64,000 nucleotides of DNA from an uncultured bacterium (lineage in GTDB: Bacteria; Cyanobacteriota; Vampirovibrionia; Gastranaerophilales; Gastranaerophilaceae): NCBI GenBank assembly GCA_902801985.1, contig CADCKD010000002.1, positions 1-64,000 on the forward strand, written 5' to 3'. Positions 10,865 through 15,043 of this stretch are shown here, piece by piece; position 1 is the stretch's first letter; each line of letters opens with the position of its first letter. The notes below the pieces were generated by a model that worked only from the letters and a program-made list of their open reading frames with translations, searched no databases and was not told the DNA's origin. The position numbers and the translations under genes are program-made.

Positions 10865-11677
10865 CTATTTACCTACTGAAATTTTATAAATTTTATTTTT
10901 ATTAATCCCATATAATTCTGACAAAATTACAGATATATCCTTTGCACTAAAACCTTTGCCCTGCAACAGTTTTATCTTCTCAATAATATCAGACTCCGAA
11001 ATATCTTCTTTTGCCCTAAAAATCATGACTACAAATTCGCCTTTAGGTTCATTCGCTTCAAAATGTTTTATAACTTTATCAATATCATCAACTAGAACTT
11101 CTTCAAAAAGTTTAGTGAGCTCTCTGCCTATTGCAATTTGTGCCTGCGGGCGCGATTGCTGTATTGTTTTGAGGGTATTTAGAATTCTGTTTGGTGATTC
11201 ATAAAATACTGTATCGTGAAATTTGTATTGATTTATAATTTCTTCAATTTGTTTTTGATTTTTTGGTAAAAAACCTATAAAAGAAAACTTTTCATCTTCT
11301 CTTGATATTTGAGATAAAAAAGTAACAAGTGCATTCGCACCGGCAAGTGAAGTTACAGAAAATCCTCTTTGCCGCAATTCTTTTACAATTACAGCTCCGG
11401 GATCACAAATTAATGGCGTGCCGGCATCTGATACTAAAGCCATTTTCTTTCCATCTTCAAGCATGCTTACTATTTGTGAAACACGTTCTTTTTCATTGTA
11501 TTTGTGGTATGATACGCATTTTGTCGCAATATTATAATGATTAAGAAGTTTTTGCGTATTTCGGCTATCTTCACAAGCAATAACATCAACCGATTTTAAT
11601 ATATCAATTGCTCTTAAAGATATATCACCTAAATTCCCGATAGGGGTTGGAACAATATAAAAATCGTATTCTTTCAT
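10865..11677 (-). CDS. rsmI: 16S rRNA 2'-O-ribose C1402 methyltransferase
   Basis: 270 residues. It has the RsmI/tetrapyrrole methylase start FYIVPTPIGNLGDISLRA, then CEDSRNTQKLLNHY, the SAM-site segment LVSDAGTPLICDPG and GFLPKNQKQI. The enzyme methylates C1402 of 16S rRNA with S-adenosylmethionine. A short C-terminal extension (SAKDISVILSELYG) is normal. It begins six bases after the end of the serpin-like gene and has no clear Shine-Dalgarno site, so it is probably translated by coupling as the last gene of that operon. Confidence 0.95.
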   Translation of the reverse strand: MKEYDFYIVPTPIGNLGDISLRAIDILKSVDVIACEDSRNTQKLLNHYNIATKCVSYHKYNEKERVSQIVSMLEDGKKMALVSDAGTPLICDPGAVIVKELRQRGFSVTSLAGANALVTFLSQISREDEKFSFIGFLPKNQKQIEEIINQYKFHDTVFYESPNRILNTLKTIQQSRPQAQIAIGRELTKLFEEVLVDDIDKVIKHFEANEPKGEFVVMIFRAKEDISESDIIEKIKLLQGKGFSAKDISVILSELYGINKNKIYKISVGK

Positions 11678-11683
11678 AATAAA

Positions 11684-12817
11684 TTATTTCTTTTTCCCTG
11701 TTTTATTCAAAGTTTCAACATCATCTACACGCAGTGCAAAATACGGAACAGATTTATCTTTTTCTATCAAGAATAAAACAAATGTGTCATCAAAATAAAA
11801 ACGCCTGATTTGAGGTGGTCTGCCGACAGATGTTAATTCCATCATAATAGCAGCTTCACTTTTTAGGTATACACCTTCATTATCCATTTTGAATTCCACC
11901 GTTTCAATGGTTTGACTTATTAAAAAGTCACTATCCTTAATCGGGCGACCTTCTACATCCGGGAAATTTGTCATTTGATATAAATTTAAATCAGGAACTT
12001 TTAATCTGTCATTATGTCCAAAATATTTATTTCCGTTATATGCAGCCTCTTTAGCTTGCATATCTTCAAATAATTCATTAAACCTTTTATCATCTTTTGT
12101 TTTGTACAAAATTACTTCATCGTTAGTTTTTGTGTGCAATTTTACAGCATAATCACTTGGTGAATTGTAAAATAAAACACTTACGTTTTGATAAAGTTTA
12201 GACGGGCTGTCTTCACTTATACCAAAATATTTTACCTTATTAGGGTTCTGGGCAAATACACCATCTGCAAGTTTTTCAAAAGGTTCCAAAAATTTGAAAT
12301 CTTTTTTGAGCATGGCATAAATAAGTATTTTGGAAGGACTATATGAAAAATCAAATTGATCCAAAATATCACTTGTTTCATTGAATTTATCTTTTATAGC
12401 TTTTTCAATTTTTGTTTTTAATTTAGGCTCAACAATGCCATAAGTTGTATAGTATGAACTTTCGCTAATATCTGTTTTATTAAATTCTCTTGCATTCAAA
12501 TCTTTTGCAGCCTGAGTTGTCCCTCCGACAAATTCAACGGGATGTTTTATAATATTATCCACCATTTCATTCCAAACAATTTGGAATGTACCAACCCAAA
12601 TTCTGTTCGGAGCAGAACTTTTAGTATTCATTGTCGGCAACAGAGCAATATCTCCATCATCCTTCAACGGTTCTGAAACAACAACTTCAGATTCCGGAGT
12701 TATAGTCTTTATTTCTAATTTTTGCATTTTGTTCTTTTTAAAATGGCATGCACTCACGGATGAAAAAATACCCGCAAATAACATCAACGCAATAAAAATT
12801 CCTATAAATTTTTTCAT
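11684..12817 (-). CDS. Serpin-like lipoprotein
   Basis: 377 residues, close to the 350-400 of serpins. The N-terminus is a lipoprotein signal (hydrophobic helix, then SVSAC as lipobox). The C-terminal third follows the serpin core: an EFKMDNEGVYLKSEAA segment in place of the hinge EVxEEGTEAAAA, a short loop, then RRFYFDDTFVLFLIEKD and VPYFALRV in place of FxADHPFLFxI and ILFMGRV. The reactive loop appears short and the hinge alanines are mostly replaced, so inhibition by the classic mechanism is doubtful. It would sit on the periplasmic side of the inner or outer membrane. It overlaps the previous gene by one base and is third in a BlaI-headed operon. Confidence 0.6.
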   Translation of the reverse strand: MKKFIGIFIALMLFAGIFSSVSACHFKKNKMQKLEIKTITPESEVVVSEPLKDDGDIALLPTMNTKSSAPNRIWVGTFQIVWNEMVDNIIKHPVEFVGGTTQAAKDLNAREFNKTDISESSYYTTYGIVEPKLKTKIEKAIKDKFNETSDILDQFDFSYSPSKILIYAMLKKDFKFLEPFEKLADGVFAQNPNKVKYFGISEDSPSKLYQNVSVLFYNSPSDYAVKLHTKTNDEVILYKTKDDKRFNELFEDMQAKEAAYNGNKYFGHNDRLKVPDLNLYQMTNFPDVEGRPIKDSDFLISQTIETVEFKMDNEGVYLKSEAAIMMELTSVGRPPQIRRFYFDDTFVLFLIEKDKSVPYFALRVDDVETLNKTGKKK

Positions 12818-13197
12818 TATTCTTTATCCTTTACATTTAAACTTTTCCAAAAACTTTTAAAAAACCCCCATAAATTTTTTTGATGCATTATCGGGGCATA
12901 CTCATAGAACTGCTTATAATTATCTATTATATTTTGAGGTAAATTTTCTCCTCTTTCCAACGTACTGGAAAGGAATTCTATATAATCATCTTGCTCTTCT
13001 CTGTATAAATTATCTCTTGCTCTGATATCTTCATCTGCCTCATAATGTATTAAAGCATGATAAGCAGCAATAAGACTATCATCCTTTGTATCTTTAGGAT
13101 ATCTGAGCATAGCCTCTCGAACACTCAATGTGCCAAGCCTTACGAGCCTCAGTAATTCTGAAGCAATTTTTCTGTCATTCAAATTATCTTCCGGCAT
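12817..13197 (-). CDS. Hypothetical helical protein in the BlaI operon
   Basis: 126 residues, entirely helical, charged, with no signal peptide and no membrane helix. A segment about 35-95 (SLIAAYHALIHYEADEDI, then YIEFLSSTLERG) has regular helices. It starts two bases after the BlaI-type gene and overlaps the serpin-like gene by one base, so the three are one operon. The family is not recognised. It could be a cytosolic partner linking repressor and lipoprotein, but no sequence evidence shows that. Confidence 0.7.
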   Translation of the reverse strand: MPEDNLNDRKIASELLRLVRLGTLSVREAMLRYPKDTKDDSLIAAYHALIHYEADEDIRARDNLYREEQDDYIEFLSSTLERGENLPQNIIDNYKQFYEYAPIMHQKNLWGFFKSFWKSLNVKDKE

Positions 13198-13199
13198 AA

Positions 13200-13544
13200 T
13201 TATTTAACTAAAAGTTCTACTGTTTCTCTTTCGACAAAACGTACCATATCGGAAGTATTACCGTTAAAGAAATTGTTAGTAAATTCTTTAAGAGTTTCCA
13301 ATGCCATTTCACGTTTGTCCATTGTAACCTTATAGAAAAACTTTTTCCCTGATTTATATCTAACTAAAATACTTTTTGAAACTAATCTGTCCATGACAGT
13401 TTTAATAGTTGTATAAGCTCTTTCCATACCATTTTTTGATAATTCATCAACAACATCCTGAATAGAGATGTCAACGTCTTCATTGTTAGATGAGATGCTC
13501 CAAAATGTATTCAAAATTTCCATTTCAAGAAAACCACAAGCCAT
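13200..13544 (-). CDS. BlaI/MecI/CopY-family transcriptional repressor
   Basis: 114 residues with a good AGGAG site. The winged-helix core is clear: FLEMEILNTFWSI, VVDELSKN, then ERAYTTIKTVMDRLVSKSIL and the wing YKSGKKFFYKV. These repressors bind dyads as dimers and are usually released by cleavage through BlaR1/MecR1 or by metal in CopY. Neither a BlaR1-type peptidase nor a beta-lactamase is nearby. A perfect 13-base palindrome lies 22 bases upstream of the start and may be its own operator. The operon continues with an unknown protein, the serpin-like lipoprotein and rsmI. Confidence 0.88.
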   Translation of the reverse strand: MACGFLEMEILNTFWSISSNNEDVDISIQDVVDELSKNGMERAYTTIKTVMDRLVSKSILVRYKSGKKFFYKVTMDKREMALETLKEFTNNFFNGNTSDMVRFVERETVELLVK

Positions 13545-13565
13545 ATTTTTCTCCTATATTTTTAC

Positions 13566-13578
13566 TACTATAATAGTA
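13566..13578. promoter_or_regulatory. Candidate BlaI-type operator
   Basis: TACTAT-A-ATAGTA is a perfect 13-base palindrome just before the repressor gene. BlaI/CopY dyads are of the TAC(A/T)...(A/T)GTA kind, so autoregulation is likely. Confidence 0.5.
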
Positions 13579-13656
13579 ATATAAATTATTTTTTTTGACA
13601 ATACCCTTATAAAAAATTTACAAAATTACACAAAAAATATACGCAATTTTACAAAA

Positions 13657-13690: not shown

Positions 13691-15043
13691 ATGGCTGATG
13701 AGACTTTAGACAGAAGTGAAATTGATTCATTGAAATCCCGAGTAAAGGAAAAACTCGACCAGACAAATTTGTATACATATAAAGGTTCTGTATCAAAACT
13801 ACTTGGTTTAACGGTAGAGGTAAAACTTCCGGGATTAAAGATTGGCGACTTATGTTTTATAGAGACATATGATGGCAAGCAAAAACCTGCAGAAGTACAA
13901 GCTTTTAGAGGAGAAGTTGCGCAATTATCACTACTTTTGGACGGAGATGGAATCGGACAGGGAAGTCTTGTTACCTCTACAGGAAAACCTATTATTATTC
14001 CTGTTGGTGATTTTTTGCTTGGCAGATTAATAGACCCTATGGGTAATCCTATTGACGGCAGACCTTTAGATTTGACAAATGCAGAATGGAAAGCTATTGA
14101 AGGACCGCCACCGGGACCATTTGAAAGACCAATTATTACCGAGATGTTTTCAACGGGTGTTCGTGCAATAGACGGCTGCATGACTATGGGCTGCGGTCAG
14201 CGTTTGGGTTTATTTGCCGGTTCAGGTGTAGGTAAAAGTACACTATTGGGTATGATTGCACGTAATTCGGACGCAGATGTTAACGTAGTTGCTCTGATTG
14301 GAGAACGTGGCAGAGAAGTAAAAGAATTCGTAGAGGATGCACTAGGGCCTGAAGGTATGGCAAAATCCGTACTTGTATGTTCTACCGGTGATAAACCGCC
14401 TCTTATCAGACAAAAATGTTTACTTACTGCAACTGCTGTTTGTGAATATTTCAGAGATAGAGGACAAAAAGTTTTCTTAATGACGGATACTGTTACACGT
14501 TGTGCAATGGCAGGACGTGAAGTTGGGTTATCTTTAGGTGAGCCCCCAACAATGAAAGGTTATCCGCCGTCTATTTTCTCATGGCTGCAAAAAGTTTTAG
14601 AGCGTGCCGGTAATAGTGAAAAAGGATCTATAACCGCATTATACACCGTTCTTATGGAAGGTGATGATATTAACGACCCGATTGTTGATATTGTACGTGG
14701 TATTGTAGACGGACACATTTTCTTATCAAGAAAAGTAGCAGAATCAAACCACTACCCCGCAATAGACGTATTAGGGAGTATTTCCCGTTTAATGAGTGCA
14801 ATTGCAACTCCTGAACATAAACAAGCTGCCGCAAAACTAAGAACAATTATGTCTTTATACAGAGAAAATAAAGACCTTATTGATGTCGGTATGTATCAAC
14901 CGGGTTCTAACCCAAGGCTTGACACCGCAATTGAAATGATGCCGAAAATTAATGCATTTTTGCAGCAAAGAACGGATGATAGCGTTACTATGGACGGTAC
15001 AATCAGTCAGCTTATTGACATGATGAAAGATGTTGAGATCTAG
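13691..15043 (+). CDS. FliI/SctN-family type III export ATPase, isolated
   Basis: 450 residues from the ATG at 13691. It has the rotary-ATPase fold: an N-terminal barrel, the Walker A loop GLFAGSGVGKSTLLGMIA (about residue 175), LIGERGREVKEF, the Walker B region VFLMTDTVTRCAMAGREVGL, and the SITALYTVLMEGDD and GHIFLSRKVAE segments typical of FliI and SctN rather than of AtpD or Rho. In flagella and injectisomes this enzyme unloads export substrates at the inner-membrane gate. No FliH, FlhA or other export gene lies within 13 kb on the left or 49 kb on the right, so partners must be elsewhere or the protein works alone. Promoter spacing predicts a leaderless message. Confidence 0.88.
   Translation: MADETLDRSEIDSLKSRVKEKLDQTNLYTYKGSVSKLLGLTVEVKLPGLKIGDLCFIETYDGKQKPAEVQAFRGEVAQLSLLLDGDGIGQGSLVTSTGKPIIIPVGDFLLGRLIDPMGNPIDGRPLDLTNAEWKAIEGPPPGPFERPIITEMFSTGVRAIDGCMTMGCGQRLGLFAGSGVGKSTLLGMIARNSDADVNVVALIGERGREVKEFVEDALGPEGMAKSVLVCSTGDKPPLIRQKCLLTATAVCEYFRDRGQKVFLMTDTVTRCAMAGREVGLSLGEPPTMKGYPPSIFSWLQKVLERAGNSEKGSITALYTVLMEGDDINDPIVDIVRGIVDGHIFLSRKVAESNHYPAIDVLGSISRLMSAIATPEHKQAAAKLRTIMSLYRENKDLIDVGMYQPGSNPRLDTAIEMMPKINAFLQQRTDDSVTMDGTISQLIDMMKDVEI

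Follow-up and report, generated by a model that had tools for sequence, protein, structure and literature searches.

What is known of BlaI repressors concerns mainly beta-lactam resistance, in which they act as the switch and the BlaR1 protease drives them. A BlaI-type gene that shares an operon with a serpin-like gene, in a genome with no evident BlaR1, therefore raises the question of what such a repressor controls and what could release it. We addressed this question in a stretch of 64,000 nucleotides (the window), which comes from a genome of 2.14 Mb (G000). The named relatives of this genome belong to the Gastranaerophilales/Melainabacteria, and many of them are from gut and rumen. The initial annotation had proposed that the BlaI-type gene (here BLAI), a gene for a helical protein (HEL), a gene for a serpin-like lipoprotein (LIPO) and rsmI form an operon responding to protease stress in the envelope. 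Two surveys of relatives were used, one of 80 named loci centred on LIPO and one of 194 genomes for BLAI, HEL and LIPO. The features of the locus are collected in Table 1.

Table 1. Features of the BLAI locus, in window coordinates
Feature	Position	Strand	Remarks
BLAI	13200..13544	-	114 aa; PF03965, E 6.5e-19; matches solved BlaI/MecI
HEL	12817..13197	-	126 aa, helical; no Pfam family; accompanies BLAI constantly throughout the order
LIPO	11684..12817	-	377 aa; exported, predicted serpin fold; lipobox-like VSAC in this species
rsmI	10865..11677	-	TIGR00096, E 2.3e-66
Predicted operator dyad TTACTATTATAGTAG; family form TTACAATNNTAGTAA	13565..13579	-	contains the initially annotated TACTAT-A-ATAGTA; arms kept in relatives
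-10 box TACTAT	13573..13578	-	within operator; TACAAT at the same position in relatives
-35 box TTGTCA	13596..13601	-	spacer 17; TTGAAA-like at the same position in relatives

The product of BLAI scored 68.8 bits against Penicillinase_R (PF03965; curated cut-off 22.6), which places it in this family, and a genome-wide profile search detected no other PF03965 gene in G000. BLAI, HEL and LIPO form a tight operon: a 2-nt gap separates BLAI from HEL, HEL and LIPO overlap by 1 nt, and 6 nt lie between LIPO and rsmI, in agreement with the one- to six-base junctions originally described. In the window genome rsmI may be co-transcribed with the operon; it lies outside the segment 11684-13578 to which the initial annotation had assigned the four genes. 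A gene for a FliI/YscN-type secretion ATPase (13691-15043) is divergent from BLAI, and the two have their intergenic region in common; among the 80 named loci this gene was found beside BLAI only in L083.

The palindrome TACTATAATAGTA at 13566-13578, which the initial annotation had placed at the BLAI promoter, has no second perfect copy in the window; read as TACTATNATAGTA, it has none in the whole 2.1-Mb genome either. It overlaps the promoter TTGTCA-17-TACTAT, and relatives carry TTACAATNNTAGTAA at the same place upstream of BLAI. Judged by this conservation, the palindrome belongs to a putative operator, TTAC-N7-GTAR, that is kept among relatives and overlaps the -10 box, and BLAI would have the dyad over its own promoter that is characteristic of its family. 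An alignment of 59 distinct upstream regions was anchored at the left arm alone; in it the right arm, which the promoter boxes do not cover, showed 1.5-1.9 bits per position and 0.9 bits at its last base. All close relatives that were read have the motif at the BLAI promoter; the site of G005 (on the contig that also holds L083) was a TTACTAT variant. The operator was kept ahead of BLAI-HEL where LIPO is absent or located elsewhere. It was found neither upstream of stand-alone LIPO genes (4-5 mismatches) nor before the gene that in many loci stands ahead of BLAI (3-5 mismatches).

The conservation of the gene order expected by the initial annotation held for the first three genes and failed for the fourth. 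BLAI, HEL and LIPO occurred together in 60 of the 80 LIPO-centred loci. LIPO was present in 86 of the 194 genomes, a count that comes from a single-sequence search which distant LIPO genes may escape, and it adjoined HEL in 49 of these 86, spanning nine genera; in the remaining 37 LIPO-bearing genomes it was located elsewhere, without the operator. HEL was present in 140 genomes and adjoined BLAI in 114 of them. In the genus of the window the BLAI-HEL pair was found in 41 of 46 members; LIPO was found in 33, linked to the pair every time, and nine members had the pair without LIPO. Other genera carried the pair ahead of TadE-like genes, radA or rsmH-ftsL-ftsI. Since BLAI-HEL occurs both without LIPO and with different flanking genes, it appears as the more widespread unit and LIPO as a frequent cargo: BLAI-HEL is an old, order-wide pair and LIPO is optional. 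As a conserved member of the operon rsmI was rejected, because it adjoined the other genes only in the window and in L083 among 81 loci. Several genera have BLAI-HEL directly upstream of the rsmH-ftsL-ftsI cell-division cluster (L224, L227 and L230; also L225, L226, L231 and L239). The products of rsmI and rsmH modify the same 16S rRNA base; that rsmI follows the operon in the window and rsmH lies near BLAI-HEL elsewhere is possibly a coincidence. A small lipoprotein with a GPxDxxFD-type tail was seen upstream of HEL or BLAI in three loci only.

An assignment of HEL to a known family or fold was rejected: we obtained one weak, sub-threshold NCBIfam match and no Pfam family, and a structure search with its predicted model (pLDDT 82) returned no PDB match with E < 3. 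Some genera retain HEL without BLAI. In 15 loci from other families and genera a gene for a TadE-like pseudopilin lies 3' of HEL, with or without BLAI (L203, L204, L206-L209, L216, L218 and others). Models of defence systems gave no match for BLAI, HEL or LIPO.

The genome of the window contains four perfect TTACNATNNTAGTAR sites, of which two are intragenic, one is that at BLAI and one, at C29:12765-12779, has the surroundings of a promoter and precedes a gene encoding a NAGPA-domain phosphodiester glycosidase by about 116 nt. The product of this gene (PF09992, E 4.2e-42) has an N-terminal hydrophobic segment. The NAGPA gene is divergent from a DUF167 (YggU) gene (G000:C29:12765-14140; L245, L253), and in other genera many stand-alone LIPO genes likewise have a DUF167-like gene ahead of them. 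Thirty orthologues of the NAGPA gene were collected from the genus, and 28 of the 29 that were readable carried the site (26 perfect, 2 with one mismatch), compared to 3-5 mismatches for the reversed control. In other genera a perfect NAGPA site was found in 15 of 22 BLAI-bearing genomes and in 1 of 7 BLAI-less genomes (Fisher p 0.019, descent ignored); in some of the seven BLAI-bearing genomes lacking it the promoter may fall beyond the sequence that was read. Across ten whole genomes from four genera there were 25 perfect TTACAATNNTAGTAR sites, of which 10 were at NAGPA, 9 at BLAI and 6 elsewhere, the last being at chance level (7 in the reversed control); the BLAI site of the tenth genome, G005, is the TTACTAT variant mentioned above. 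In one genome a third perfect operator-like promoter was found before a small gene with a HEMAH motif and a weak SprA-related match (L314; G051:C11:410541-410555). A larger regulon built on loosely matching sites was rejected, since sites with one mismatch were no commoner than in the reversed control.

From the distribution of these sites we consider it probable, with moderate confidence, that BLAI governs a BlaR1-less, envelope-facing regulon of two promoters. Several observations weigh against this reading. A NAGPA site was kept in genomes in which no BlaI gene was detected, namely in three genus members (G002, G007 and G042, all draft genomes, G042 being 66% complete) and, as a perfect site, in G074. 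The NAGPA leader is conserved past the dyad, so another factor could act there. Finally, the TTAC-N7-GTAA spacing is wider than that of TACANNTGTA, reported for BlaI, MecI and CopY. The first two of these findings would be explained if the shared TTACAATNNTAGTA motif were a promoter or leader feature read by a factor other than BLAI, and its link to NAGPA were coincidental. We regard this explanation as unlikely, considering that the motif shows no genome-wide enrichment over the reversed control, is confined to two promoters in several genomes, stands at the BLAI promoter of all the close relatives read and has been lost from most BLAI-less genera.

We then asked what LIPO contributes to a regulon of this kind. 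As a single sequence LIPO had no PDB match by sequence. When a profile of 26 family members was used, all PDB matches up to E 10 were serpins (best E 0.009). Pfam Serpin (PF00079) matched 12 of the 26 members, with a best E of 8.2e-5 and all observed scores below the Pfam cut-off; for ten members scanned singly the top score was 22.1 bits against a cut-off of 27 bits, and a PF00079 scan of genome G000 gave no match. An AlphaFold2 model built from 63 sequences (pLDDT 81.6, pTM 0.78) matched serpins in Foldseek with a best E of 5e-11 and superimposed on solved serpins with Z 19.2 and an rmsd of 3.6 Å over 276 aligned residues in the range 60-367, at 10-15% identity in the structural alignments. 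According to this model most of the LIPO chain adopts the serpin fold, which bears out the serpin-like character first suggested for it. Its description as a lipoprotein applies to the window, where LIPO has the lipobox-like VSAC, and does not extend to the family, in which a similar motif was present in just 15 of 63 members.

Inhibitory serpins have a hinge of small residues with a consensus around EEGTEAAAAT. Alignment to antitrypsin revealed an insertion of four residues after the hinge Gly and before EAA in the LIPO family, so that its hinge consists of Gly, the four extra residues, SEAA and then a bulky residue. G315, L318, K319, S320, E321 and A322 were invariant in the 63 family sequences, position 324 was Ile, Met or Leu in all of them, and residues 325-337 were variable. 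By its sequence the hinge is serpin-like but not of the usual inhibitory type, and protease inhibition cannot be judged from it. The model shows residues 315-326 as a strand, which we read as an inserted loop; the prediction cannot tell whether this is the native state.

These features bear on the proposal of the initial annotation, in which a protease would inactivate BLAI, and the serpin-fold LIPO would be induced to trap that or another protease. This proposal draws on the serpin fold of the model, and it agrees with a hinge that retains SEAA past an invariant Gly and then runs into a variable loop, and with the place of LIPO within the BLAI operon in nine genera. We nevertheless consider it very unlikely: there is no M56 receptor above cut-off in the genome and the scissile Asn is not kept in BLAI (see below), the hinge has the insertion and the bulky position 324, the BLAI-HEL pair with its operator exists without LIPO, and the candidate target in trans is a glycosidase and not a protease. 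The alternative that LIPO is a non-inhibitory serpin (a carrier, a chaperone or a structural protein of the envelope) and joined the BLAI operon as neutral cargo has in our estimation a little less than an even chance. It would fit the best structural matches of the model, which were mostly cleaved or relaxed serpins, the strand at 315-326, the atypical hinge and the 37 genomes in which LIPO stands apart from the operator. However, the predictor may favour the relaxed state for any serpin, none of the 63 sequences departs from the hinge motif, as though the loop were of importance, and the linkage to BLAI-HEL persists in nine genera. Since stand-alone LIPO genes are without an operator, LIPO does not need control by BLAI, which also counts against the two-promoter reading.

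Returning to the two-promoter regulon that we favour, BLAI, probably as a dimer, would occupy TTAC-N7-GTAR at two -10 boxes, that of its own operon and that of a single distant gene. Both dyads overlap a -10 box, and therefore repression is the simplest reading. BLAI would repress itself, HEL and LIPO (the last in the genus of the window and in eight other genera) and, in trans, the exported NAGPA phosphodiester glycosidase. The set supported by conservation is BLAI-HEL(-LIPO) with NAGPA, instead of the four genes first annotated. As for its release, the initial annotation had seen no BlaR1, and we searched the genome for M56 peptidases (PF05569). No match above cut-off was obtained anywhere in G000. 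One weak match, on contig C9, was rejected as BlaR1-type because, carrying a HELSH motif, it was read as HtpX-like. A real M56 gene was found in one genus member only, G011, beside a genuine second BlaI and apart from the BLAI-HEL-LIPO operon of that genome (G011:C12:16810-18292; L177, L223). In S. aureus BlaI the Asn101-Phe102 bond is cut by BlaR1 (PMC9834060). The Asn-Phe pair is not kept in the BLAI alignment, which has Arg, Lys or His before the Phe at that place. Release of BLAI by an M56 receptor is thus unlikely, in view of both the M56 search and the replaced Asn. Compared to staphylococcal BlaI, BLAI is also the shorter protein; its conserved hydrophobic tail, Leu-Val(-Lys) (13200-13214), might be a degradation signal.

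A small cytoplasmic ligand, such as a wall fragment, or HEL would be a more likely trigger. Peptidoglycan dipeptides at millimolar concentration loosen B. licheniformis BlaI and S. aureus MecI directly (PMC3305447), and such a ligand would be apt for a regulon made up of exported proteins. The other candidate trigger is the co-encoded HEL. The full scheme in which HEL, as a new family of antirepressors or sensors, frees BLAI without BlaR1 and thereby induces both an exported serpin that traps proteases and a phosphodiester glycosidase at the cell surface seems to us distinctly improbable.

A whole order of uncultured gut bacteria thus keeps BlaI without BlaR1, with HEL as a constant partner and with what appears to be a compact two-promoter regulon of exported proteins. 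This provides a simple setting for asking what BlaI senses without BlaR1, wall fragments being the first candidate. It also adds a divergent exported family, LIPO, with a predicted serpin fold that standard annotation has missed. Among open-licence papers we found none that links serpins with BlaI and none on an orphan BlaI in Melainabacteria.

Several known systems resemble parts of this one. Bacterial serpins such as chloropin and the siropins have the serpin fold predicted for LIPO, and an export signal is found in chloropin as well (PMC10090351). Compared to them LIPO has diverged much further, its hinge is altered and it belongs to a BlaI operon. The regulons of Clostridium thermocellum BlaI_1845 and BlaI_0696 are likewise very small and self-regulating, and their half-sites GACTAT/GTCTAT resemble TACTAT, but they include BlaR1 genes and paired sites, and neither a serpin nor NAGPA is named among their members (PMC8457756). 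With BlaI-BlaR1 and MecI-MecR1 of S. aureus and B. licheniformis BLAI shares a winged-helix repressor over its own promoter, a dyad operator and envelope-related cargo. It differs from them in having neither the M56 receptor nor the Asn-Phe pair, in its cargo of a helical protein, a serpin-fold protein and a NAGPA glycosidase, and in its operator, which has N7 between TAC and GTA, compared to N4 in theirs. The copper repressors CopY/CopR belong to the same PF03965 family and fold, and their operator has TAC/GTA arms; unlike them, BLAI and its relatives lack C-terminal Cys-X-Cys metal motifs in sequence and alignment, and no copper pump adjoins BLAI. As to family, BLAI is therefore a BlaI-type regulator; its system matches neither BlaI-BlaR1 nor CopY.
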